Below are positions 7,748 through 62,623 of a stretch of 64,000 nt of DNA, piece by piece. This DNA comes from Thermoproteus sp. (GTDB taxonomy: Archaea > Thermoproteota > Thermoprotei > Thermoproteales > Thermoproteaceae). Within the stretch, counting starts at the first letter, position 1; every line of letters begins with the position of its first letter. The notes below the pieces were generated by a model. That model saw only the letters and a program-made list of their open reading frames with translations. It ran no database searches and was not told the DNA's origin. Position numbers and translations under genes: made by a program. The stretch is from positions 1,415,824-1,479,823 of the forward strand of contig JAWARJ010000001.1 of NCBI GenBank assembly GCA_038893495.1. The letters run 5' to 3'.

Positions 7748-9198
7748 ACATCTTAGACCACTACGAGATCTCCGAGCTCGTACAGGTCGTCGTCTATGTG
7801 GACGAGGCCGGCTTTAGGCGGTACAAGCCCGTGGAGCCGCCTCTAAGCGAGGAGGAGGCCGCCGTCCTCAAGAGGCTTAAGGGGGCCATACAGAACCTCG
7901 GGGACGTAAAGGACGGCGTCTTGCGCCTCGCCAGAGAGAGGAGGGCCGAGTACCTAGAGGAGCTTGCCAAGAGGGCTGCGACGGAGTTTAAAGTCAAGGT
8001 CGATGAGGGGGCTTGGGGCAAGGTGATGTATTTCCTCCGTAGGGACCTCTTGGGATACGGGAAGCTCGACCCCCTCGTGAGGGACCCCTACATAGAGGAC
8101 ATTCACGTCGACGGGCCGGGGCGCGTCTACATATGGCACAGCCGTTGGGAGTCGTTGATGACGGACGTGGAGCTCACCGCCGAGGAGCTCGATGTCTACG
8201 TCCAACGCCTCTCTGCGCTAGTGGGGAAGCCAGTCTCCTACGCTGACCCCATATTGGAGGGGATGCTCCCAGAGGGCTATAGGCTCGAGCTGGCCGTGCC
8301 GCCCATATCGCCTAGAGGCCCCTCCTTCGTCGTCAGGAAGTACTTCGTGTCTCCCATCACGTTGATAGATATGATAAAGATGGGGACCATCTCGGCTGAG
8401 GCGGTGGCGTACCTCTGGCTCATGTTGGACTACGGCCGCAATATAGTCATCGTCGGGCCGACCGGCGCAGGCAAGACCACCCTGCTGAACGCCCTCTTGT
8501 ACCTGGTGAGGCCCGACGCCAAGATACTCACCATAGAGGACACGCGGGAGATAAACCTGGTCCACGAGCACTGGCAGGCCCTGATCACTAGGCCCTCTAG
8601 GGGCGAGGGCGTGAGGGACGTGTCGGCCTTCGACCTCTTGACCATAGCCATGCGCTCCCGCCCCGACTACGTGGTGGTGGGAGAGATAAGGGGGGAGGAG
8701 GCCTACGTCCTCTTCCAAGCCTTCGGCTCCGGCCATTCGGGCGCCACGACGATACACGCCGAGACCATAGAAGACGCCGTCAGGCGGCTCTTGACGAGGC
8801 CCATGTCGGTGCCCCCCATGCTCGTGGGGCTAGCCCACATATTCGTGAGGATACTACGCGTCAAGACGGGGGAGCAAGTCGTCCGGAGGGTCGTAGAGAT
8901 CGCCGAGAATTTAGGCGTCACGAGAGGTGGGAGGCCGAGGCTCCACTATGTATTCCGCTGGGACCCAGACCGCGACGTCTTGATGCGGGTGGAAGAGAGT
9001 AGGCACTTCGAGGTTATATCCAGGGCCCGCTTCGTGCCTCTGGACCGCCTTAAGGCCGAATACGAGCGGAGGAAAAGGCTGATAGCCCTAATGGCCGAGA
9101 GGGGCTATACCTCGCCTTACGTAGTGGCTAAGATATTCACGCAGTACCACTTGGCACCCGACGCGGCCGTCAAGGCCGTAGAGGAGGGCAAGATCTAG
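7744..9198 (+). CDS. type IV pilus assembly ATPase (GspE/FlaI/VirB11 superfamily)
   Basis: Cytoplasmic secretion ATPase that powers pilin polymerisation, 484 residues. After an N-terminal domain there is DYGRNIVIVGPTGAGKTT (Walker A near residue 238-245), an Asp box (LTIEDTREI), Walker B region DYVVVGEIRGEEA, and a His box (SGHSGATTIHAE), all typical of the family. An in-frame GTG lies at 7738, but the ATG at 7744 gives the ATGA overlap with the upstream gene, so I use it. Followed by a second platform protein. Together with the pilins this is a bona fide archaeal type IV pilus system; nothing links it to the archaellum accessory genes. Confidence 0.92.
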   Translation: MNILDHYEISELVQVVVYVDEAGFRRYKPVEPPLSEEEAAVLKRLKGAIQNLGDVKDGVLRLARERRAEYLEELAKRAATEFKVKVDEGAWGKVMYFLRRDLLGYGKLDPLVRDPYIEDIHVDGPGRVYIWHSRWESLMTDVELTAEELDVYVQRLSALVGKPVSYADPILEGMLPEGYRLELAVPPISPRGPSFVVRKYFVSPITLIDMIKMGTISAEAVAYLWLMLDYGRNIVIVGPTGAGKTTLLNALLYLVRPDAKILTIEDTREINLVHEHWQALITRPSRGEGVRDVSAFDLLTIAMRSRPDYVVVGEIRGEEAYVLFQAFGSGHSGATTIHAETIEDAVRRLLTRPMSVPPMLVGLAHIFVRILRVKTGEQVVRRVVEIAENLGVTRGGRPRLHYVFRWDPDRDVLMRVEESRHFEVISRARFVPLDRLKAEYERRKRLIALMAERGYTSPYVVAKIFTQYHLAPDAAVKAVEEGKI

Positions 9199-12899: not shown

Positions 12900-13442
12900 G
12901 TGTTGATCGTCATTACGGGGCCTATGTTCTCGGGGAAGACCACGGAGCTCATTAGGATAGTCGAGAGACAGGTCATCGCCGGGAGGAGCGCCGTGGTCTT
13001 CAAGCCCGAGGTGGACGTGAGGTACGACGGGTCGAAGGTGGCGGCCCACAACGGGCTCAGGCTGGAGGCCGTGGCGGTGCCGCCCGACGCGAGGGGTGTG
13101 GCCGAGATAGCCGAGAGGGGGCGGGCCTATGGGGTCATTGGGGTCGACGAGATACAATTCTTCCCGGCGGAGCTGGCCGAGGTCCTGGACGCCCTCGCCG
13201 CGGACCGCCTCGTCGTGGCCGCGGGGCTGAATCTGGACTACGCCGGGAGGCCCTTTGAGACCACCATGAGGGCCATGGCCTACGCCGACAGGGTCATATC
13301 CCTTACGGCGGTCTGTAAGGTCTGCGGGAGGCCGGCCACGAGGACCCAGAGGCTGGCGCCAGGCGGTCCCAGGCTGTTGGTGGGCGGGGCCGAGCTCTAC
13401 GAGGCCCGGTGCAGGAGGCACCACGTAGTGCCGAGGCCCTAG
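12900..13442 (+). CDS. tdk: thymidine kinase (TK1 type)
   Basis: ATP-dependent thymidine kinase of pyrimidine salvage, 180 residues from GTG 12900. Walker A GPMFSGKTTELIR is at residues about 7-19, the Walker B-like VDEIQFF near residue 81, and a C-terminal zinc site with CKVCGRPATRTQR and a late ARCRRHH is visible. The frame is open back to a TTG at 12861, but the family normally starts just before the P-loop (LIVITGPMFSGKT) and a TATA-like CATATC lies about 25 bases before the GTG. Stands alone between the ZIP gene and the nitrate operon. Confidence 0.9.
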   Translation: MLIVITGPMFSGKTTELIRIVERQVIAGRSAVVFKPEVDVRYDGSKVAAHNGLRLEAVAVPPDARGVAEIAERGRAYGVIGVDEIQFFPAELAEVLDALAADRLVVAAGLNLDYAGRPFETTMRAMAYADRVISLTAVCKVCGRPATRTQRLAPGGPRLLVGGAELYEARCRRHHVVPRP

Positions 13443-52177: not shown

Positions 52178-52278
52178 AGCCCGGTCGTCTAGCGGCCAAT
52201 GGGGCCACGGTTGGGCGACCCGGCTAGGGATGCGGGGCTTTGGACCCCGTGGCCCGGGTTCGAATCCCGGCCGGGCTA
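52178..52278 (+). tRNA. tRNA-Gln (anticodon TTG) with an intron of about 28 nt in the D-loop
   Basis: Acceptor AGCCCGG pairs with CCGGGCT, then discriminator A. The anticodon stem CGGGG/CCCCG holds loop CTTTGGA, anticodon TTG. T-stem CCGGG/CCCGG with loop TTCGAAT. The D-arm GTCT/GGAT is separated by about 37 bases, where 8-10 are normal, so an intron of about 28 bases interrupts the D-loop. A TATA box CTTATAAAT (52149-52157) lies about 25 bases upstream. No CCA is encoded. The 3' half is the attachment site of the element that follows. Confidence 0.85.
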
Positions 52279-52282
52279 CTTA
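52238..52282 (+). repeat. attL: 45-bp direct repeat copy within tRNA-Gln
   Basis: The repeat starts in the anticodon loop (CTTTGGACC) and runs four bases past the discriminator (CTTA). It is identical to 61908-61952. Integration has left the tRNA gene whole at this end. Confidence 0.92.
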
Positions 52283-52287
52283 CATTC

Positions 52288-52312
52288 CGCTTTACCTTAA
52301 TAATGTAAAGCG
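52288..52312. repeat. inverted repeat next to attL
   Basis: CGCTTTAC and GTAAAGCG separated by 9 bases, six bases after the direct repeat. The same arms and spacing occur just outside attR (61958-61982), so this may be an arm-binding site for the integrase or a transcription terminator. Confidence 0.6.
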
Positions 52313-52415
52313 ACGCCGTTAAGTGACCATATGGGCTCAACTTAATTCAGCTTAATGTCGACAAATAAAAAAGCTATAAAAAATCTACAAAAAGAGCTTA
52401 AAGACACGGCCGCCA

Positions 52416-53060
52416 TTACCGGCGCCGGAGACCCAATAGGCGTGCTTGCTTTACGGCTTCGAGGTATTCTGCATCTCTGGAGAGCTTCTTCACTGCCGTC
52501 CGGTATGACACGCCGGCCATCTTGGCGGCCTCCTTGAGGGTGAAGCCCCTCCTGACTAGATCCACGATCTTCCGCCTCTTCTCTTCGCTCCAAACAGGCG
52601 GGCGACCCACCCTCTTACCCGCGGCTTTGGCCCTGGCGAGGGCCTCCCTAGTCCTCTCGCGGATGAACTCCCTCTCCATCTCGCCGGCCCAGCCCAGCAC
52701 CGCCACCAGGAAGTCGCGGATCTTCGGGTCGACGTTGGAGAGCCAGTCCTCCCTCACCGAATAGATAGACCAGCCCCTCGCCGCGAACTCTTTGTATACC
52801 GACGCGAGCTCCCAGAGGGAGCGGGCTATCCTGTCTAGGGCATATACAACTACGCCCTGGGCCCTCCCGGCCTCCAGGTCTGCCAGCACCTGCCTCCAGC
52901 CGGGTCTCTCTGTGGGCGGGACTGATCCAGACACTCCCACGTCCTTATAGACCGCGGCGACCCTCATGCCCTTTGTGGCGGCTAGGCGGAGTATGGCGAA
53001 CTCTTGGTTTTCTGGGTTTTCGTCCTCCCTAGAGACCCTGACGTAGCCGACGATGTCCAC
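52416..53060 (-). CDS. serine recombinase (resolvase/invertase type)
   Basis: Site-specific recombinase, 214 residues. The catalytic Ser is in DIVGYVRVSRED (residue 10); the Arg-rich segment YALDRIARSLWEL and the long helix AGEMEREFIRERTREAL follow, and the C-terminal helix-turn-helix TLKEAAKMAGVSYRTAVKKL binds DNA. This order (catalytic first, HTH last) marks the small resolvase/invertase class, not IS607 TnpA. GTG at 53060 chosen: VDIVGYVRV is the usual start, and a TATA box (TTATATATT near 53080-53088) lies about 24 bases upstream. Probably resolves element multimers. Confidence 0.9.
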   Translation of the reverse strand: MDIVGYVRVSREDENPENQEFAILRLAATKGMRVAAVYKDVGVSGSVPPTERPGWRQVLADLEAGRAQGVVVYALDRIARSLWELASVYKEFAARGWSIYSVREDWLSNVDPKIRDFLVAVLGWAGEMEREFIRERTREALARAKAAGKRVGRPPVWSEEKRRKIVDLVRRGFTLKEAAKMAGVSYRTAVKKLSRDAEYLEAVKQARLLGLRRR

Positions 53061-53410
53061 GTATGTAGCGAAAAGGTGGGAATATATAACTATTGCATTG
53101 GGGGGATTAATGCCTCCGAGGCAGAAACCTCCGGAAAGAACGCACAAGTGTAGAAACGGCCGTTTTCTGCACTCGGCCGTCGGTCGGGCAGACGGTAGAG
53201 GTCCGCCCTCTTGAGGAGGGCCCTTCGCGGCTGGGCTCGTCCGGCTGACTCCGCGGCACATCTGCGAGACGTCGCTGGAGACAGCGCTGGGTGGCCGACT
53301 GGGGGCGCAGTTGTGAAATTCGACCGGGGTGCGGCTGAGGGCGTTGGGGGCCGGTTGATGACCTCGTCTCTATGCGGCAACCTTTAAAAGCCGCCTTGGC
53401 ATCGAGGCAC
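53061..53410. other. non-coding stretch between serine recombinase and cargo gene
   Basis: 350 bases. It contains the promoters of the two flanking genes: TTATATATT on the minus strand at 53080-53088 and CTTTAAAAG on the plus strand at 53380-53390. The rest has short G- and C-rich inverted patches (ACGGCCGT at 53156-53163). A resolution (res) site would be expected here, but no clear repeat pair was found. Confidence 0.4.
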
Positions 53411-54496
53411 GTGAGGGTGACGAGGAGGCAGATGTTGGCGCTACTGCCGGCGGCCGCCTTGGCTCTCGCGGCTGGCATATACGTGTTGGAAGGCGTCTTG
53501 GGCCGCACCCAGACAAGCCAAACTGGAACGCCCACAGCCACATCGTATTCACAGCCAATCCCCACAACAACAGCCTCAACACAAACAACACAGGGAAGTG
53601 GGGGATTAAATAGCAACTGTACACAACAGTGGGGAATGTGGTTCTGCTATGGAAATGTTGGCGATGCTATAAGTAAGACCGATGAATTAAAGAACCAAGT
53701 ACATCCGTACTTCTTTTCCACAAAAGACAATTCATTATTCATAAGATATATATTTAGACTTAATGGAATTGACCTAGAAGAAGTAAAAGATCAGAATGTT
53801 CTACAAAGCTTAGAAAATGTAATTGGAGGAGATTGGAAATTATATAGGGTTTATCTATATTTAGATGATGGAAATGGAAATATTTATGAATATGGAGAAG
53901 AAATGTATACAATTTCTGGAAACATCATGCCTAAGATTGATAAACAACAGAATAAAGAATATCAGCTAGAAGATATAGCGAACTTATTTAATTATTATAA
54001 AAATGTAATAGGTATCGATCCGCATATTCTTATAATTACACCACAATTTAGTATAGGGAATGGAAAAATATACGGTGGTGATGTTTTATATCTTTACTAT
54101 CCAATAAGGCCTGATATATTTGGAGATAAATATTCTGATACAAACATACCAGGTTTTCTTCAATTTATGAAGAATATATATTTCTATGCTGGAGATACTT
54201 ATGGGGAAATCCTTTTACTAACATCGAGTTTAAATATATCTAGGCAGGAATTACCTCCCATGTATAATACAGCGAAGTATCAGGAGTTACAATCAAAATT
54301 AGAACAAAGAGGTATACAGAATCCAGCCATTTTCCAAGAAGTAGCTAAAGATAACAATAATAATATAATAAAGGAAGCATATTTCTTTGTGCCTGAAGAA
54401 TTAATATTACCTGTAGACTATGCATATATGGCATTGACACTTGCATTAAAATTAATAAGTAATAGATATGCGGCATTTGCAACATTGCACGGATAA
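53411..54496 (+). CDS. exported protein with Tat-like signal, AT-rich cargo gene of unknown function
   Basis: 361 residues from GTG 53411. The N-terminus VRVTRRQMLALLPAAALALAAG has twin Arg then a hydrophobic run, a likely Tat or uncleaved anchor; next comes a Thr/Ser/Gln-rich linker (about 35-65), then a large domain of unknown fold, rich in Tyr, Asn, Ile and Gln with a few sequons. The first 110 bases are GC-rich like the host; from about 53,520 on the gene is AT-rich, so the signal and body may have different origins. GTG chosen from TATA CTTTAAAAG about 26 bases upstream. T-rich tracts just after the stop may end the transcript. No homologue recognised. Confidence 0.7.
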   Translation: MRVTRRQMLALLPAAALALAAGIYVLEGVLGRTQTSQTGTPTATSYSQPIPTTTASTQTTQGSGGLNSNCTQQWGMWFCYGNVGDAISKTDELKNQVHPYFFSTKDNSLFIRYIFRLNGIDLEEVKDQNVLQSLENVIGGDWKLYRVYLYLDDGNGNIYEYGEEMYTISGNIMPKIDKQQNKEYQLEDIANLFNYYKNVIGIDPHILIITPQFSIGNGKIYGGDVLYLYYPIRPDIFGDKYSDTNIPGFLQFMKNIYFYAGDTYGEILLLTSSLNISRQELPPMYNTAKYQELQSKLEQRGIQNPAIFQEVAKDNNNNIIKEAYFFVPEELILPVDYAYMALTLALKLISNRYAAFATLHG

Positions 54497-54801
54497 TTTT
54501 ATTTATATTTTTTCTAAGCATTTTAATTACTCTATATTCTATTGTAATAAGTAGAGCTTCTCTCTTCATTTACTGCTGAATCCTGGTGGGAATGTATGCC
54601 CGTCACGTCCCGCACAGCGACGGGCTTGATCCGGAGCGGCATCCTCACAGGAGTCGCCATTAGGCGCGCGGCCGGGGCATTTTCGAGACATTCGCGTATT
54701 CTCCCAATATTACAGTTATTAAATAGAAAAGTTATAAGCTACAAAATATAGCTGTTTTTTAAGGGAGGGGGCACAATAAAAACTCACAAAGTTGCCCTTA
54801 T
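54497..54801. other. non-coding stretch with T-rich terminator-like tract and promoter
   Basis: 305 bases. Immediately after the cargo gene, T-rich runs (54497-54516) resemble archaeal terminators. A TATA box CACAATAAAAAC near 54771-54782 lies about 25 bases before the GTG at 54802. In between is GC-rich sequence without a gene; a loose CCCGTC...GACGGG inverted repeat is at 54599-54624. Confidence 0.45.
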
Positions 54802-55164
54802 GTGTCAGAGGACGTAATAAGAGCTCCAATTCCGACAGGTGGCTTACCTGTACGTGCGGTGAAATTCGGCACTGCCGGCTACGTGATAAGTATGGACGGG
54901 AAGCATTGGGCCGCGAGGCTCGACTGCATTGAGGCCGACGTCTACATCGTCGGGCTGAACATGCCGGTCTCCATGAGGTTCTATAAGATAAACGCGCGGG
55001 TGAAAACCCGCGCCTACTTCGCCCCAGCGGGCGGCTACGGGAAAGTAATGAGTTCGCTGGCCGACCGGTATAGAGCCCTGCCGTGGGTCCTGTACAACAT
55101 CAAGCCTTCAGACAACTGCAGGAGGAGAGACAAAGGCGAGGTGTCGACAGGCGGAGGAAAATAG
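54802..55164 (+). CDS. element protein of unknown family, copy A, 120 aa
   Basis: I do not recognise this protein, but it is a diverged paralogue of the one at 60106-60522: WAARLDCIEA matches WIASLDCIEA, GGYGKVMSSLADR matches RGFGKILQYLAER, and PSDNCRRR matches PSDICRR, all in the same order. Two cysteines (LDCIEA, NCRRR) are conserved in both. The core is predicted beta-rich with a C-terminal helix and basic tail. GTG start from a TATA box about 25 bases upstream. It begins the gene run leading to the primase; the 12-base gap to the Sm-like gene suggests an operon. Confidence 0.7.
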   Translation: MSEDVIRAPIPTGGLPVRAVKFGTAGYVISMDGKHWAARLDCIEADVYIVGLNMPVSMRFYKINARVKTRAYFAPAGGYGKVMSSLADRYRALPWVLYNIKPSDNCRRRDKGEVSTGGGK

Positions 55165-55176
55165 AGGAGAGAGGCC

Positions 55177-55410
55177 ATGCAGGGAAACAAGCCAGCCCAA
55201 CAAAGTCCTCAGACTAGCCAGAAGCAGGGAAATAAAAACGTTGTGGATTGGAGGCTCGCCGAGGGCAAAAGGGTCAAGCTCCACCTGGCCAACGGCGAGG
55301 TCGTCGAGGGCGTCGTGCTCAAGAGCTACAAATACACGTACCTCGCGCTAGTCGCCGGGAGGCAGGTGATCGTCAATAAGGCGCACATCGTGAAGGTGGA
55401 GTTGCCATGA
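55177..55410 (+). CDS. Sm/Hfq-like small protein, 77 aa
   Basis: After a Gln/Ser-rich tail (residues 1-24) comes a five-stranded pattern matching the Sm fold: GKRVKLHLANGEVVEGVVLKSYK (Sm1-like: L.NG...G.V) and RQVIVNKAHIVKVEL (Sm2-like, resembling the Hfq KHAI segment). Sm/Hfq proteins form rings that bind RNA. If correct, this element carries its own RNA chaperone, which is unusual. It overlaps the next gene by 4 bases. Other small beta-barrel proteins are an alternative. Confidence 0.55.
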   Translation: MQGNKPAQQSPQTSQKQGNKNVVDWRLAEGKRVKLHLANGEVVEGVVLKSYKYTYLALVAGRQVIVNKAHIVKVELP

Positions 55411-56432
55411 GCGACTTCTTCAAAATTCTCGAGGGCCTGCGCGATAGAGTAGACGTCGCTTATCCCGACGATGTGGATAAGGTAAAGAGGGCGGTGTTGA
55501 AGGTGGCGGAGGGCCTTCAGCCTGGCGATAGGGGTGTGTTGTACGCCTTGCTGAAGGCCTTGGCGGAAGGGAGGATTAAGGACGGCCTCGCGGGGCTCAC
55601 GGCGCTACGCGATTTGGTATACAACACGGAGTTCGTCAAAGAGCTACGCGTAGAGCCCGCCCAGGTCCCCGAGTCTCTCGACCCACAGGCAAGCCGGCAG
55701 GTGCTCGACGCCCTTAAGGCGGAGTTAGAAAAAGACGCGTCGTACAAAATCCCGATCGACGTCCTGCACAAATTCATCGCCTCCGCCCGCTGTGTTAAAG
55801 ACGGCAACAAAATTGTGTACTACATCGCATTCCACACGCCGAGGGGCATAAGCGACGAGATCGCAGTGCCCTACGGCGAGTTCTTCGGCGGGAAGGGAGG
55901 CATCAGGACGCCGTCTACGCTGAAGAGGTTGCTCTTCTACTACAACATAATAGTAGAGAAGGGGGGACCCCTCGCCCTGTTGAACAAACTGAAGGAATTA
56001 CCCTGCGAGAAGAAAATCGACAAAGAGACTGCGGCATTAAAGGCGGCTCTCTTCGAGCTCATCGCGCCTAGACACCCCATGGCGCCCCACTGCGTTAAAG
56101 ACAACGAGAGGGCCCCCGTCTACTACGACGTTGCGGCGGGGGAGCTGTGGGTCTCCGAGAGGAGGGCGTCGCAGGTGTTGGCTAACTATGGCATCAAGAT
56201 GAGGACGGGGGCTCCCTGGAGGAAACTAGAGGAATTGGGCATACTGAAGGGTAGGACTAAGCGCAAGCTGGCGAACGGCGACGCCGAAAACGTCCGCGTC
56301 TTTGACGCAAAGGCGCTTGAGGAGTTCTTGGGCGTGGAGCTCGACTCCATGTGCACTACGTCGTACGTCTCGGCGCTGGCCAGGGCTGTGGAGGAGATCC
56401 TAGACGCCAAGGAGAGGGAAGATGCTCGATAA
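55407..56432 (+). CDS. unknown replication-module protein, 341 aa
   Basis: Not recognised. It has helical N- and C-terminal parts; the C-terminal segment (residues about 240-330) has the look of a winged-helix DNA-binding domain (ERRASQVLANYGIKMRTGAPWRKLEELGILKGRTKRKL). Several single cysteines, but no known catalytic motif. It overlaps the Sm-like gene by 4 bases and the helicase by 11, so it belongs with the replication operon. A plausible role is origin recognition or helicase loading; this is inference. Confidence 0.6.
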   Translation: MSDFFKILEGLRDRVDVAYPDDVDKVKRAVLKVAEGLQPGDRGVLYALLKALAEGRIKDGLAGLTALRDLVYNTEFVKELRVEPAQVPESLDPQASRQVLDALKAELEKDASYKIPIDVLHKFIASARCVKDGNKIVYYIAFHTPRGISDEIAVPYGEFFGGKGGIRTPSTLKRLLFYYNIIVEKGGPLALLNKLKELPCEKKIDKETAALKAALFELIAPRHPMAPHCVKDNERAPVYYDVAAGELWVSERRASQVLANYGIKMRTGAPWRKLEELGILKGRTKRKLANGDAENVRVFDAKALEEFLGVELDSMCTTSYVSALARAVEEILDAKEREDAR

Positions 56433-58032
56433 GGTGCGTCGGGAGGTGGCGGACGCAGTGTGGAGACAAGTCCGCAAGTGGCTTGAGGACAAGGAGGTCT
56501 ATCTGATCTTCGGCCCGCCGGGCACCGGCAAGACGGCGGCGGGCGGCAGACTGGCGTTTGAGGGGCGCGTTGAGGTCGAAGGCGTGGAGTTGCGCATAAA
56601 TTCGGTGTACCCCACGGCGGTCTACTTCAACAGATCCATGGCCGACTCGGCCGCCAGCAGATTTAAGGGGGCGATTAGGGAGAGGTACGGCCTTGCGAAG
56701 TACACAGAACACGCGATCAAGACCGTGGACGGCCTCGCCGTCTCTCTAGCCATAAGGCTGGGCTACAGGCTGTACGCTGGGCAGGGTCTCGAGCGCTGTT
56801 TCAAACTGGAGGAGAGGCTCGAGCCTGAAGTCGCCATAGAGCTGTTGAGGGCGTGCCTTACGCGTGCGGCCGGGCTCCCCTACAGCCTAGACCCCTACGA
56901 GAACCCTGAGCGGGGCAACGAGATCTTCTCCGACTTCGACTACTTCATCAACACCATACCTGTCCCGGGTAGCGACGGCGTGGACTTGTTGATATCCGCA
57001 TTGGTTGAGGAGGGCCGCCTTACTCCCAACGAGGCCTCCGTGTTACGGAAATACGTCGAGTTCCTCCTCCGTGGGGGCAGGGTGGATTTCACCTTGGCCA
57101 AGAGGCTGGCGTTTGAAGGCAATCTGAAGTACACGATCAAGCACCATAAGCTCGGAGAGGTGGAGTCCGACACTGTGTTTATCGACGAGGCGCAAGACCT
57201 CTCGCCACTGATGTGGCTCATGGTGGCGAGGGCGTTTCCAAATGCGTACAACGTGGTGATAGCGGGCGACGACGACCAGACGATATACACGTCGCTTCAC
57301 GGCGCCAAGCCGGACATACTGTTGAGGATTGCGGAGGCGTTAGAGCGTGGAGAGCTGAAAGGCCACAGGCCCGTCGTCCTCAAGCAGAGCCACAGGGTGG
57401 CGGCCCCCGTCGCCGAAGTGGCCAAGTCCGTCATCGCCAAGTTGCCGAACCGCTGGCCTAAGGACTGGCAGGGAAGAGACGTCGTGGCTTCGGTGAAGAA
57501 GATCTCGATCGGCGAGGCCTTGAGCAAAATCGTGGAGATATACGATCAGGCGGCGCACCAGCTTAGACGGAGCGAAATCCCCGAGGCCTTCGTTCTGGCG
57601 CCCACGAACCGCATCGTGCTGGACCTATACTACACCCTGCTGGCCGTGGGCGTGTTGCCGTCTTCGCTTAAACGCAGACTGCCCTATACGATCGAGCGGA
57701 TGATTAAGCACTACATAGAGACCGGCGAGACGCACGTCGAGGTGCTCAAGAAAATGGAGGTGGCTCTGAAGGAAAGGGGGCACGATCCGAAGGCCAGAAT
57801 CGAGAAGATGTTCGAAATGGCGAAAAAGGGGGCCTCGCCGGTTGTAGTCGACACGGCCTACACCGCGAAGGGGCTTGAGTGCCACACCGCATTCCTGATA
57901 AACAGCAACACCGCCGCCAGCCTCGAGGAGAGGATCAGGCTGGCCTACGTCGCGCTGACCAGGGCCAGAGAGAACGTGTACATCGTAGACGCGCCCGCGA
58001 CGCCTTGGACGCCCCTCTGGATCCCCCTATGA
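56422..58032 (+). CDS. SF1 DNA helicase (UvrD/Rep-like)
   Basis: Superfamily 1 helicase, 536 residues. Motif I FGPPGTGKT (about 30-38), motif II VFIDEAQDLS near residue 255, motif III AGDDDQTIYTSLHGA, motif IV KQSHRVAAP, motif V VDTAYTAKGLECHTAF, and motif VI RLAYVALTRARENVYI are all visible. Start at ATG 56422 overlaps the preceding gene. Small plasmid helicases of this class are paired with an AEP primase in the pTN2-type plasmids of Thermococcales; here the same pairing occurs. Confidence 0.92.
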   Translation: MLDKVRREVADAVWRQVRKWLEDKEVYLIFGPPGTGKTAAGGRLAFEGRVEVEGVELRINSVYPTAVYFNRSMADSAASRFKGAIRERYGLAKYTEHAIKTVDGLAVSLAIRLGYRLYAGQGLERCFKLEERLEPEVAIELLRACLTRAAGLPYSLDPYENPERGNEIFSDFDYFINTIPVPGSDGVDLLISALVEEGRLTPNEASVLRKYVEFLLRGGRVDFTLAKRLAFEGNLKYTIKHHKLGEVESDTVFIDEAQDLSPLMWLMVARAFPNAYNVVIAGDDDQTIYTSLHGAKPDILLRIAEALERGELKGHRPVVLKQSHRVAAPVAEVAKSVIAKLPNRWPKDWQGRDVVASVKKISIGEALSKIVEIYDQAAHQLRRSEIPEAFVLAPTNRIVLDLYYTLLAVGVLPSSLKRRLPYTIERMIKHYIETGETHVEVLKKMEVALKERGHDPKARIEKMFEMAKKGASPVVVDTAYTAKGLECHTAFLINSNTAASLEERIRLAYVALTRARENVYIVDAPATPWTPLWIPL

Positions 58033-59144
58033 AGTGGAGCGAAGTCCTCGCCGGCCCCTTCGGGAGGGACTACTGGCTTAGCTACAACAGAGGCGGCAAG
58101 CAGGAGGTCGCCGAGAGGTGGGGCGTAAAGGACCTCCCAGACGTATATGTGAGGAACCTCAGCGTCTACGGCCCCTCGCCGGAGGCCGCCAGGAGCTTGC
58201 CGCCGCCATTTAAATATAGACTGATCAAAAAAGACGGCGACCCGCTCCCGGCCTGTAGGTTCAACTACGCCGTGACTACCGACGAGTACATCCCGAAGGC
58301 GCCTTGGTGGCGCCTCGACGGCATCTACAATATCGCCTTCAGCGACCTGCTCTACGACGGCAACATCTACAGCGGGAAGGAGTGGAAGTGCACGGCCGAG
58401 GGCCTTAAGCCCGCCGTAGCGGACATAATTAGGCTCGACGTCGACCTGCCAGCTCCCAGCGAGCTCGACAACGCCGTCAAGCAGGTGCTCGCCCGCCTCG
58501 AGAAGTTGGGCCTCGACGCGGCGGTGCTGGACAGCGGGGCCAGGGGCTTCCACGTCTGGTTCGTGCCGGAGGTGCCAGTCCCGGCGAAGTTCGTCCCGGC
58601 CCTAAGGCGGGGCCTCGCGGCCAGGCTGGACTTAGAGGTCGACCCTCAGACCGTGGGGGACCCAATGCGTTGTTTCCGTATGCCGTGGACCATAAACCTC
58701 AAAAGCGGGCGTAGGGCGAAGTTCATCCACGGGGGGCCGTGGCCCAAGCCGATAGCCCTAGAGGAGATAAAGGCGCTGATACTGATAGGCATGGAGGTGA
58801 AAATGGCCGACTTGAGGCCTCCGCCTAAGGAGCCTAGGCGGATCCCCCGGTGGGTTCGGCGGCTAATAGAGCACATGTGCCAGACACGTGAGCTATGCCA
58901 CTACGGCAGGGTTGCAATAGCGAGATCCCTCCTGGCGGCCGGCTGGTCTATAGACCAAGTGGTCGAGGTGTTCAAGTGCGTCGAGGACTTCGACGAAAAG
59001 AAGACTAGATACCACGTGGAGTACGAAGCGAAGAGACTAGCCGCAGGGGAGAAACCGTGGCGTTGCGAAACCGTGATCGAGCACTGCGGCGAAAGTATGC
59101 CGCAAGACCTATGTGAAAACTTAAATAGGAAAGAAATAGTATAG
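58029..59144 (+). CDS. AEP-type primase (PriS-like) with PriL-like C-terminal domain
   Basis: Initiates replication by making primers, 371 residues. The archaeo-eukaryotic primase core is seen: catalytic Asp pair in RLDVDLP (D137, D139), DSGARGFHVWF (about 168-178) and FRMPWTINLKSGRRAKF. The C-terminal part has cysteines MCQTRELC...WRCETVIEHCG...DLCEN, which could hold an iron-sulphur cluster as in PriL. The ATG at 58029 overlaps the helicase stop by 4 bases; the open frame further upstream runs through the helicase and is not used. A single-chain PriS-PriL-like fusion is known from archaeal plasmids such as pTN2. Confidence 0.88.
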   Translation: MKWSEVLAGPFGRDYWLSYNRGGKQEVAERWGVKDLPDVYVRNLSVYGPSPEAARSLPPPFKYRLIKKDGDPLPACRFNYAVTTDEYIPKAPWWRLDGIYNIAFSDLLYDGNIYSGKEWKCTAEGLKPAVADIIRLDVDLPAPSELDNAVKQVLARLEKLGLDAAVLDSGARGFHVWFVPEVPVPAKFVPALRRGLAARLDLEVDPQTVGDPMRCFRMPWTINLKSGRRAKFIHGGPWPKPIALEEIKALILIGMEVKMADLRPPPKEPRRIPRWVRRLIEHMCQTRELCHYGRVAIARSLLAAGWSIDQVVEVFKCVEDFDEKKTRYHVEYEAKRLAAGEKPWRCETVIEHCGESMPQDLCENLNRKEIV

Positions 59145-59204
59145 ATCGTCAGAGGCGTGAAACCCCGCTTGACGTTTTCCGTGTGGGGTTTCGACAAAGG
59201 TTGG

Positions 59205-59700
59205 TTTGAGTACGGCGCGAGGTTCGGCAAAAAATGCGCCGTACTCAATGTACTCAATTCTCGGCGGATAGTTTCAGTCTACTCTGAGGATAGTTGAAAG
59301 TAAGACTCGCCGGAATAATTGAAAACAGGGTAATTGGAAGTAAAATAGTTGAAAGCCATTTGTTCTTTACATGTAGAAAGCGGAAAAGCGTTCTAGACAG
59401 ATGTAAACAATGCCGAGTTCGCTGAAACTATTTTTGGTTTTGGGTTTTACTCCAGGTGTTTGAGTACGGCATACAGCGGAATTTACGGCGCGTCTCCCGC
59501 CGTACTCAATGTACTCAAACGCTTTATGCGCGTAAAGCGGTTTTTCGGAGACACAGCCCGCCGTGCTCAAACTACTCAAACTATATGTATATCAAGGGCC
59601 TATACGCCGAGACTCTCCGCCGTGCTCAAACAGCTTTTCAATTATCCCCCCGTACTCAAACCGCTTTGCGCTCCCGCCGAGGGAGCCCCCCGTACTCACT
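59205..59700. repeat. iteron-like repeats, unit CCGCCGTACTCAA
   Basis: Forward copies: 59237 (CGCCGTACTCAA followed by TGTACTCAA), 59497 (same double form), 59557 (CCGTGCTCAA then ACTACTCAAA), 59617 (CCGTGCTCAAA), 59648 (CCCGTACTCAAA) and 59688 (CCCGTACTCACTCAAA). Inverted copies TTTGAGTACGGC at 59205 and 59459. Spacing is uneven and the copies share a core CCGT(A/G)CTCAA. Repeats of this type usually bind the plasmid replication initiator. Confidence 0.75.
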
Positions 59701-59879
59701 CAAAAACCCCCAATTTCTAAAAACGGCGTGGGGGGTCGGCGGAAATTCGGCGCAAAAACGTCAAAAATCATGAATTTTTAGCCAAACTCTCGGCGGCATA
59801 ATGTAAAGAGTAGCCCTATCCACGATAGCGCTATGTAAAGAGGACTTGTTTCGGCGGGATGTCTGCCCTACATTGGAGG

Positions 59880-59980
59880 AGAGAAGTAGAGAGGTGCGCC
59901 TTGAGGCCTTGAGGGGGTTGCCCCTCCTGTGGTGATAAGAAGGCGAGCAAGCTTCGCCCTTTAGGGCGGGGTCAGTTGCG
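59880..59980 (+). other. possible remnant of IS200/IS605-type right end
   Basis: The GC-rich hairpin CGCCCT-TT-AGGGCG at 59955-59968, preceded by AAGGCGAGCAAGCTT and followed by GGGGTCAG, resembles the hairpin near the right end of IS200/IS605 (TnpB) elements of thermophilic archaea. No tnpA or tnpB open frame is left. Weak, by eye only. Confidence 0.3.
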
Positions 59981-60105
59981 ATATTGCGATTACTATATGC
60001 CGTCGCGGGCCTTTGGGCTCGCGTTGGGAGGGCTTTCTGTTAGTTTTGGCTTTCTCCAGCGTGTCGCCGCAGGAGGACAATAAATGCCCCTAAGCTCGGC
60101 CGTAT

Positions 60106-60522
60106 GTGGCCCAAAACGACCAACTGTTGGTGCACACCATCAAGTGGCGGGAGGCATATGCCTTGGCCGTGCCGCGTTCGTCGTGGATCGCGTCGCTAGA
60201 CTGCATAGAGGCCGCACTGCGGATACCCGGCACGCAGGAGCAGGCCGTAGTGGTGCTATATAGGGCCGACTCGTCGAGGTCTTTCATATACTACCTGCCT
60301 AGACGGGGATTCGGCAAAATACTGCAGTATCTAGCCGAACGGAGCAAAATGCTCGACATGGTCTACGCGGCCCCCAGCGACATATGTAGGAGACTGGAGA
60401 GAAATAGGCGCGGCACACAGACGGCAAACCGCAGAGAGCCGACAAGTCGGCCGAACGGCCAAAAGGCGCAGTACGCGGCTAGAGGCGCGAGAGGCCTCCC
60501 ACAGACGCCCTCCCGGCGATAG
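60106..60522 (+). CDS. element protein of unknown family, copy B, 138 aa
   Basis: Diverged paralogue of the 54802-55164 protein, with the same order of conserved segments (SLDCIEA, GFGKILQYLAER, PSDICRR) and a longer, very basic, Arg/Gln/Pro tail. GTG start at 60106, with an AT-rich CAATAAATG box about 24 bases upstream. It stands alone between the probable origin and the integrase. The two copies bracket the replication module. Function unknown; a nucleic-acid-binding role would suit the basic tail, but this is inference. Confidence 0.7.
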   Translation: MAQNDQLLVHTIKWREAYALAVPRSSWIASLDCIEAALRIPGTQEQAVVVLYRADSSRSFIYYLPRRGFGKILQYLAERSKMLDMVYAAPSDICRRLERNRRGTQTANRREPTSRPNGQKAQYAARGARGLPQTPSRR

Positions 60523-60623
60523 CTATTTTTCGCCGCCTGTTTTCCCTCCCGGCCCCTCCCCCCGCCCCGCCTAGACGCGCAAAAATAAGCCCGAGAAAAC
60601 TAGCTGTTTTTCTCGCGGCTCGT

Positions 60624-61847
60624 CTAGCCGCCGTTGGGGAAGACGCGAGGGGCGTGCCTCTCGTAGACCTCGCGTAGGCGCCTCTCATATGTGTAGATGT
60701 AGTGCTCGACGGTGACGTTTAAGCCGCCTTGTAGCGCCCTGCCTTGCAACATAGCGATGTCTGCCAGGTCTACTCCTCTGTCTAGAAGCCACTGGGCGTT
60801 GAATTTACGGAGGAGCGAGGGCTCCAGCCACGGCAGTCCTGCCTTCTCCCTAGCCTCCTTCAGCCAGTTGTATATGTGGTGCTCCTTGCACGGGAAGAGC
60901 TTCTCGGGGCTCCCCGGCGTCTTCCTCAAGTGTTCTTCCCTCCAAGGCAGATATACGTCGCGGAGGTATTTCGCCGCTCCCTCGGTCAAGAAGACCAACG
61001 GCTGTCTCTTGACGCCGGAAGTCTCGCCGAGGACCAACCTCCTCCTCTCCAGGTCGAGCCCGGCTATCTGGGCCTTGAGCAGGTGGTCGAAGCGGACTCC
61101 TGTCTCCGCGAGGAGGCCCCATATGGCGGCGGCGCAAGGCGAGGTCTTGGCGGCCTCCTCCCAGACGCGCCTTACCTCCTCTAGGGACGGGAGTCTCTCC
61201 ACCTTCTTCTTGTTGTTGGACTTCGGTATCTTGAAGGAGGCGTAGAGGGCCGAGGCGAGGTTTAGGTCTTTCGGCTTTACCACCACATCTATGAACTTCT
61301 TGAGGCCTATGGCGGTCTCTTTGGCTATCTTCGGCGTCTCCATGACCTCTTTCACCCTGTTTAGGTTGTCCGGCGTGAGGACCCAGCCGACCCTCTCGAA
61401 GTACCGCGAGAGATAGCGGAGATACCTCTGTAGCTGTCCCGGCGATATCTCGCCCTCAAGCCTCCTCCTGAAGGTCTCCAAGTCGTCGCCGGAGACGTAA
61501 TACGCTATTTCGGCCTTGAGGCCTGGGAATAACGCGGAGAGCCTGTCGGCCACGTACTTCTTCAAGTGGTCGGCCCTAGCGGCCGCGGCTATCACCTCCA
61601 AGGCCTCTTCGACCTCCGCGAGCGTAGGCACCCGCCTCGGCTTGCACCGGGCGGCGTAGTCAGGCACGGCATTGAACAACGCCTCGATCGTCTTGTCCGA
61701 CGGCGCCGTCTTGCCGGATAGCCATTGCGACACGGCCGCCGAGGAGATCCCGGCCGCCTTGGCGATGTCCGCCACCGAGAGGTATCGGGCGAGACACTCC
61801 ACGAAGCTCCGCCGCTCTTCGTCGCCCCAATCGAATTTTAGGGACAT
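60624..61847 (-). CDS. archaeal tyrosine recombinase (integrase) with N-terminal HTH
   Basis: Integrates the element into tRNA-Gln, 407 residues. An N-terminal helix-turn-helix (SVADIAKAAGISSAAVSQWLSGKTAPSD, about 24-51) is followed by a core-binding region and a catalytic domain with Arg in TGVRFDHLLKAQ, a late Arg in SLLRKFNAQWLLDRG, and the probable nucleophile Tyr in VEHYIYTY. The usual His of the HxxR box is Ser here (SLLR), as in some crenarchaeal integrases. Intact and next to attR, thus resembling pNOB8-type rather than split SSV-type integrases. Confidence 0.85.
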   Translation of the reverse strand: MSLKFDWGDEERRSFVECLARYLSVADIAKAAGISSAAVSQWLSGKTAPSDKTIEALFNAVPDYAARCKPRRVPTLAEVEEALEVIAAAARADHLKKYVADRLSALFPGLKAEIAYYVSGDDLETFRRRLEGEISPGQLQRYLRYLSRYFERVGWVLTPDNLNRVKEVMETPKIAKETAIGLKKFIDVVVKPKDLNLASALYASFKIPKSNNKKKVERLPSLEEVRRVWEEAAKTSPCAAAIWGLLAETGVRFDHLLKAQIAGLDLERRRLVLGETSGVKRQPLVFLTEGAAKYLRDVYLPWREEHLRKTPGSPEKLFPCKEHHIYNWLKEAREKAGLPWLEPSLLRKFNAQWLLDRGVDLADIAMLQGRALQGGLNVTVEHYIYTYERRLREVYERHAPRVFPNGG

Positions 61848-61907
61848 ATTAGAGTGTGTTTAAAGTCCCTATTAAGCATTTTCCCCTGAAGACTTAATTA
61901 TATGAGT

Positions 61908-61952
61908 CTTTGGACCCCGTGGCCCGGGTTCGAATCCCGGCCGGGCTACTTA
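61908..61952 (+). repeat. attR: 45-bp direct repeat copy (tRNA-Gln 3' fragment)
   Basis: Exact copy of 52238-52282: anticodon loop to the discriminator base plus CTTA. The bases before it (TATATGAGT) are unrelated to a tRNA 5' half, so this is a truncated tRNA fragment left by integration, not a gene. Confidence 0.92.
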
Positions 61953-61957
61953 TCTCC

Positions 61958-61982
61958 CGCTTTACTTTAGTTTTGTAAAGCG
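61958..61982. repeat. inverted repeat next to attR
   Basis: CGCTTTAC and GTAAAGCG separated by 9 bases, matching the site at 52288-52312 in arms and spacing but not in the spacer sequence. The similarity between both flanks therefore continues beyond the 45-bp repeat. Confidence 0.6.
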
Positions 61983-62233: not shown

Positions 62234-62623
62234 CTATTGCCTCTGCTTTAGGGCCTCTAGTATCGATCTGTGGATGTCCAGAAGGATCTTTTGGTTCTCC
62301 ACCATCACCTTCTGAAGCTCCATAATCAGCCTGTTGGTTTCGTCTATTCGCTTATTTGTTTCGTCGATACGTTGGCTCAATTGCTGAAATACGTCGTCAA
62401 TACGTTTGTTGGTCTCATCGATGCGCCTATTTATGGCGTTGAGCTGTTCGTACACTGCGTCGATACGCTTATTAGTCTCGTCGATACGCTTGTTCTGCTC
62501 TCTCAGTATGGCGAGAGTCAAGAGGAATAGGTCTTCTGTCTTGAGCTTCTCGCCCTTCTCTACCTTCTTTAGGACTACCTCCAAAGACTTATCGAGGACG
62601 GGGCCCAGCATAGACTCCACCAT
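62234..62623 (-). CDS. coiled-coil protein with RIDETNK heptads, 129 aa
   Basis: Helical throughout. After an N-terminal segment (LDKSLEVVLKKVEKGEKLKTEDLFLLTLAILREQ) comes a long coiled coil of heptads RIDETNK, repeated about six times with variants (RIDAVYEQLNAINR, RIDDVFQQLSQ). ATG at 62623, with a TATA box TTTTTTATATAG on the minus strand about 20 bases upstream. Proteins of this type occur in several Thermoproteales, without known function; they may be scaffolds. The DNA repeats are short (21 bases) and imperfect. Confidence 0.75.
   Translation of the reverse strand: MVESMLGPVLDKSLEVVLKKVEKGEKLKTEDLFLLTLAILREQNKRIDETNKRIDAVYEQLNAINRRIDETNKRIDDVFQQLSQRIDETNKRIDETNRLIMELQKVMVENQKILLDIHRSILEALKQRQ

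Follow-up and report, generated by a model that had tools for sequence, protein, structure and literature searches.

The pTN2-like and pEXT9a-like plasmids of Thermococcales and Methanocaldococcus encode a superfamily 1 (SF1) helicase beside a primase, and Hfq-like proteins have been described for the pTN2-like and methanococcal plasmids (PMC3543421). The pNOB8-type integrases of the Sulfolobales plasmids pARN4 and pAH1 are specified by an unsplit gene adjoining a 40-50 bp attachment (att) site in a tRNA gene, and a protein is assigned to this type when 60% or more of it aligns to family members with an identity of 30% or higher (PMC8371274). The cryptic integrated elements of Thaumarchaeota are small, target tRNA genes including intron-containing ones, and combine an integrase with replication genes (PMC6563490). 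Described here is a 9.7-kb unit in a 64,000-nt stretch of the Thermoproteus sp. chromosome (contig JAWARJ010000001.1), referred to below as the window. The unit is very probably a small, non-conjugative integrative plasmid, and the general features of such plasmids, namely att repeats, an integrase, replication genes, and origin-like repeats, are all present.

The unit measures 9,670 bp and is delimited by two copies of a 45-bp repeat, CTTTGGACCCCGTGGCCCGGGTTCGAATCCCGGCCGGGCTACTTA, at positions 52238-52282 and 61908-61952. The copies are identical at 45 of 45 positions, exactly as an earlier sequence-only reading of this DNA had stated, and they form the sole exact same-strand repeat of at least 30 nt in the window. 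The unit is inserted into a tRNA-Gln(TTG) gene that contains an intron, and the insertion point falls in the 3' half of that gene. Whereas the tRNA gene at the left end is intact, with a D-arm intron interrupting its 5' part, the right copy consists of the tRNA 3' part alone, from the anticodon loop to the acceptor; this asymmetry had also been claimed, and both ARAGORN and the sequence bear it out. The intact gene is reconstituted by the element, and its 3' part, from 52238 on, constitutes the left att site. The element proper comprises 52238-61907 plus one repeat copy, and the span originally proposed, 52178-61982, takes in the entire tRNA and ~30 bp of right flank. It is present once in the complete 1,995,394-base chromosome, and its GC content is 55.3% as compared to 56.0% for the host. 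The order of the genes is serine resolvase, a 360-residue orphan, a five-gene operon, iterons, a second orphan copy, and the integrase. The features, with the evidence for each in parentheses, are as follows.

52178-52278, plus strand: tRNA-Gln(TTG) (ARAGORN anticodon TTG; Rfam tRNA; alignment with the tRNA-Gln(CTG) of the same genome and with relatives)
52238-52282, plus strand: attL, 45-bp repeat copy (exact match)
52416-53060, minus strand: serine recombinase, resolvase/invertase type (Pfam Resolvase, 8.3e-35; HTH_23)
53411-54496, plus strand: orphan 360-aa protein (GC 36% versus ~60% around it)
54802-55164, plus strand: orphan small protein, first operon gene (paralogue of 60106-60522)
55177-55410, plus strand: Hfq/Sm-fold protein (AlphaFold model, pLDDT 72)
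55407-56432, plus strand: 341-aa protein with a probable C-terminal winged helix (hhalign E-value 3e-4 but 40% probability)
56422-58032, plus strand: SF1 (UvrD-like) helicase (Pfam UvrD, 1.9e-10; motifs conserved in the alignment)
58029-59144, plus strand: primase, archaeo-eukaryotic primase (AEP; PriS-like) domain fused to a PriL-like domain (Pfam DNA_primase_lrg, 5.3e-7; LigD_Prim-Pol, 4.8e-4)
59206-59659, no strand: iteron array, CCGTRCTCAA in both orientations (motif counts and repeats)
60106-60522, plus strand: orphan small protein (paralogue of 54802-55164)
60624-61847, minus strand: tyrosine integrase with an N-terminal XRE-type helix-turn-helix (HTH) (Pfam HTH_3, 3.5e-8; Phage_integr_3, 4.5e-7; Phage_integrase, 3.9e-6)
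61908-61952, plus strand: attR, 45-bp repeat copy, tRNA-Gln 3' part (exact match)

The outer genes flanking the element are not neighbors in congeners. Because flank synteny is not conserved, the second tRNA-Gln gene of the genome, the paralogous tRNA-Gln(CTG), was employed as a surrogate for the empty site. When the outer flanks are joined, they match this gene continuously over 215 nt, with 94.4% identity, across the junction. Beyond attR on the right, the DNA shares 94.7% identity with that downstream of tRNA-Gln(CTG), whereas the DNA inside attL shares only 62%, and the right flank is therefore the native continuation of the tRNA gene. The same 9.7 kb is not a fixture of this locus among relatives; both the helicase and the integrase of the element are absent from all five congeners. 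The proposal that a plasmid-like element is integrated in tRNA-Gln is thus well supported by the repeats, the joined-flank match, the absence from congeners, and the sister elements described below, one of which has a true empty site.

The claim that the tyrosine integrase, the serine recombinase, and the replication module are intact is upheld in that their open reading frames (ORFs) are open and the family domains are present. The integrase is a full-length, uninterrupted ORF of 407 residues. Its gene ends at 61847 and the att site starts at 61908, such that the site lies outside of the gene and integration leaves the ORF unsplit; an SSV-type (suicidal) integrase was rejected on these grounds. 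The protein displays 32.7% identity over 71% of its length to the pARN4 integrase and 32.0% over 76% to that of pAH1, values beyond the published 30%/60% limits, and it shares with both the HTH_3, Phage_integrase, and Phage_integr_3 architecture as well as the unsplit gene next to a tRNA att site. Its N-terminal HTH, given that pAH1 and pARN4 integrases have one too, was rejected as a novelty. Arg 252, Lys 280, Arg 347, and Tyr 383 are conserved. The R...YxxR...Y signature of the pNOB8 type, however, is absent: the H/K/Y-xxR position is occupied by serine (SLLR, residues 344-347; window 60807-60818), and in the sister integrases by arginine in four and lysine in one (RLLR or KLLR), whereas more distant homologues at the order level do have YxxR. 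Because the tyrosine of YxxR is replaced in this manner, the integrase is regarded as related to the pNOB8 type but divergent, and not as a member of it. The plasmids differ as well in hosts and cargo, the element described here being 9.7 kb in length without recognized conjugation genes.

The serine recombinase, for which a GTG start is inferred, has an N-terminal catalytic domain and a C-terminal HTH. An IS607 origin was rejected on the basis of domain order, the HTH of IS607 TnpA being N-terminal, and no TnpB family was found among the main ORFs of the element.

The operon runs in the order orphan, Hfq-like protein, 341-residue protein, helicase, and primase, with intervening gaps of 12, -4, -11, and -4 nt. 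The best Protein Data Bank match to the Hfq-like model is M. jannaschii Hfq, with a template modeling (TM) score of 0.80 (target) and 36% identity. In tblastn searches of plasmids its closest matches were M. jannaschii ECE1 (7e-4), Methanocaldococcus pFS01, and the Thermococcus plasmids pIRI48 and pCIR10; only ECE1 falls below an E-value of 0.001, and those to pIRI48 and pCIR10 are weak. The latter two names are from PMC3543421, and those of the two Methanocaldococcus records are deduced from organism and size. The 341-residue protein, the structural model of which is of low confidence, is a candidate winged-helix replication initiator, and the position upstream of the helicase is occupied equivalently in the loci L095, L096, L097, and L099. 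The primase, 371 residues in length, matches NCBIfam PriL (6.3e-15), and DxD, SGxxGFH, and RxPxTxNxKSG motifs were seen by eye. Within the iteron array lie seven of the eight CCGTRCTCAA occurrences in the window, where 0.22 would be expected in 64 kb, and the array is the probable replication origin.

As in the pTN2-like plasmids, the helicase lies beside the primase, the size is of the same order (~10-13 kb), and the Hfq-like protein, a semi-conserved feature, is encoded in the same gene cluster. Direct matches of the helicase and the Hfq-like protein are weak, with the helicase showing 33.9% identity to pMETVU01 and pIRI33 over only 31% of its length. The short primase lies downstream of the helicase, whereas the pTN2-type primase-polymerase is immediately upstream, and it gave no match to PolpTN2 even at an E-value of 10; in addition, the host is crenarchaeal and the element integrative. 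Since the defining primase homologue is absent, the replicon is not considered a pTN2-like member, though it appears to work alike. With respect to the Thaumarchaeota elements, the replicon and the hosts differ, and the att sites of those elements are mostly shorter.

The sequence-only reading had not recognized an integrated plasmid with this set of genes in Thermoproteaceae. The element is not an isolated novelty, for integrases 53-58% identical to that of the element occur in five further Thermoproteaceae elements at tRNA ends. The genomes in question are G007 (two elements), Pyrobaculum sp. WP30, and the metagenome-assembled Thermoproteaceae archaeon Bin S10. The sister elements are as follows.

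L091: in tRNA-Gln, 8.13 kb, complete, with direct repeats
L092: in tRNA-Ser, 8.12 kb, complete, with direct repeats
L094: in tRNA-Ser, 10.8 kb, complete, with direct repeats
L095: in tRNA-Ser, 10.4 kb, complete, with direct repeats
L093: in tRNA-Glu, 2.5-kb remnant, with direct repeats

The serine targets are tRNA-Ser(GCT) twice and tRNA-Ser(CGA) once, and, as in the element described here, the att sites begin in the anticodon arm and reach the 3' end of the tRNA. Sister elements encode proteins 60-70% identical to the serine recombinase, which is common to this element, L092, L094, and the contig L098, and an AEP-type primase is common to this element, L091, L092, and L095. The replication modules have been swapped: L095 carries the SF1 helicase and primase, as here, whereas L091 and L092 carry instead an orphan of 697-713 residues with a primase, and L094 a PolB-like protein of 734 residues. 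The helicase-primase order is shared with L095, L096, L097, and L099, and the helicase type is present in 3 of the 81 genomes of the class. The 9.7-kb element is thus one of a scattered and apparently undescribed family of integrative elements in Thermoproteaceae.

Two further observations were made on these loci. A protein of 697-976 residues is encoded beside the AEP-type primase at L091:6795-8888, L092:8663-10804, and L098:8341-11271; no Pfam family matches the copies in L091 and L098, and the protein is a candidate for a new replication protein. Upstream of the replication genes of contig L098, at 7807-7893, are three 23-nt repeats with a spacing of 32 nt, which are likely to represent an iteron origin there too.

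The sister L091 has a true empty site in the related genome G016, in which the left (4,778 bp, 92.8% identity) and right (4,092 bp, 94.8%) flanks are contiguous apart from the tRNA. In G016 they meet at a tRNA-Gln(TTG) gene the variable region of which is interrupted by a 27-nt intron. The tRNA rebuilt by the element in G007 is intronless, and when those 27 nt are removed, the G016 gene becomes identical to the G007 tRNA. A closely similar 26-nt intron is carried by attR of L091, stranded at the far end, and the second tRNA-Gln of G007 retains its intron (L091:4779-4851 and 12934-13008; L114:10561-10660; L115:2662). Loss of a tRNA intron mediated by the integrase is therefore implied by the comparison of filled and empty sites, with the crossover narrowed to 19 bp; the simplest account would place it within the shared CTTTGGACCCCGTGGCCCG, 5' of the intron. 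Alternatively, the host may already have been intronless and attP intron-bearing, with the crossover 3' of the intron, but this would require an extra loss. Elements of this family probably overwrite the 3' half of the host tRNA and can thereby delete introns, such that integration would be a route of intron loss and introns 3' of the crossover would not be protective. The latter is contrary to the protection hypothesis of Randau and Soll (relayed in PMC3293823 and PMC4090602). The reverse event, gain of an intron from an element, has been proposed (PMC3293823). No report of tRNA intron loss by integration was found in the literature searched, which is not proof of absence.

On the basis of these genes and sites, a life cycle can be envisioned. 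The circular form would contain an attP copying the tRNA 3' half and some downstream DNA; the likeness between the two ends of the element, 87% to ~85 nt with the repeat included, suggests that this DNA came from a related host. Recombination between attP and the tRNA-Gln gene of the chromosome, carried out by the HTH-tyrosine integrase close to the anticodon loop, would leave the host with a working tRNA, and the same enzyme would catalyze excision. Replication of the circle would start at the iterons through the candidate winged-helix initiator, the SF1 helicase, the PriS-PriL-type primase, and the Hfq-like protein, with the serine recombinase resolving multimers. No capsid, conjugation, or relaxase genes were recognized, and among the nine main ORFs the Pfam, PHROG, and NCBIfam searches revealed no type IV secretion system/VirB4 or transfer families. 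Because no transfer genes were recognized, passage between cells would need host DNA uptake or a helper. Speculatively, Ted, a chromosomal DNA-exchange system in Thermoproteales (PMC9905601), could in principle move DNA of such an element.

Several points weigh against this assignment. No same-species genome provides a direct empty site for the 9.7-kb element itself, the serine at the H/K/Y-xxR position renders the activity of the integrase uncertain, and several proteins of the element lack an assigned function. In addition, no relative of integrase plus primase, whether a circular form, a plasmid, a phage, or a viral contig, was found in the databases searched. Scans of IMG/VR with the integrase alignment and with the helicase gave no match, nor did tblastn searches of phages with the integrase and the 360-residue protein, and those of plasmids with the primase and the 341-residue protein gave no relevant match. 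No CRISPR spacers against the element were recognized among whole-genome DNA matches; most of these reflected P-loop codons or a repeated hairpin. The element had been called complete, which is reasonable in light of its two ends, integrase, replication genes, and iterons; its circular form, excision, replication, and present-day mobility are putative. It had also been called recent; the repeats are perfect and the main genes open, but identity over a stretch as short as 45 bp, one copy of which is constrained as part of a tRNA gene, cannot date the integration.

Of the other explanations, one is that the unit is a decayed or domesticated island, an old, immobile integration that has been kept since its left end now completes an essential tRNA. 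The substitution at Ser 344 in the integrase active site, the near-host GC content, and the WP30 remnant of the same type are in keeping with this, but the main genes are all open, the overlapping operon is intact, and the repeats are perfect, and such an origin is considered unlikely. A provirus or virus satellite, in which the orphans at 53411-54496, 54802-55164, and 60106-60522 would be virion or packaging proteins, or in which a helper virus would package the DNA as has precedent in pSSVx (PMC3543421), is judged very unlikely. In its favor, the element encodes three orphan proteins, of which one combines an N-terminus of the secretion type with a foreign composition. No PHROG structural family was detected, however, the sole match being that of the 360-residue protein to a protease family (0.013); phage and IMG/VR matches are lacking, and integration and replication genes account for most of the 9.7 kb. 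That no integration occurred, and that the repeat is a tRNA fragment that arose by chance or duplication close to unrelated genes, is exceedingly improbable, for although tRNA fragments are short and the genome has a second tRNA-Gln copy, the integrase adjoins the repeat, the joined flanks match tRNA-Gln(CTG), and the arrangement recurs in five sisters with a true empty site in G016.

The N-terminus of the 360-residue orphan is Tat-like (twin-arginine translocation) or hydrophobic, as judged by eye, and its gene is a candidate for cargo or a foreign insert. Despite the overall GC content of 36%, the portion encoding the N-terminus is GC-rich like its surroundings, as though an AT-rich insert had been joined to a signal region of the host type. 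The two small orphans are 32% identical (E-value 3e-14), with no convincing relatives in the 81 genomes of the class. A hairpin, CAAGCTTCGCCCTTTAGGGCGGGGTCA, at window positions 59946-59972 recurs at 93-100% identity in more than 10 Thermoproteales genomes, in several copies in some, and is possibly a transposon end or an RNA relic. With regard to a TnpB omega-RNA relic, there was no Rfam match and no TnpB-size ORF beside two other copies. To the right of the element, at 62234-62623, lies a gene for a coiled-coil protein, and the chromosome contains ~10 other places similar to it.

In the papers searched, little has been written about small integrative plasmids of Thermoproteales, and the order is not genetically tractable (PMC9905601). 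From the element, very probably such a plasmid, and from its sisters, shuttle vectors could be developed, for which they supply a natural integrase, att sites, and a compact replicon; they also connect replication gene sets of the pTN2 style between archaeal phyla. The empty site of G016 and the filled site of G007, compared directly, are evidence that a tRNA intron can be lost through integration, and with this pair a standing hypothesis on what introns do in archaeal tRNAs becomes testable.

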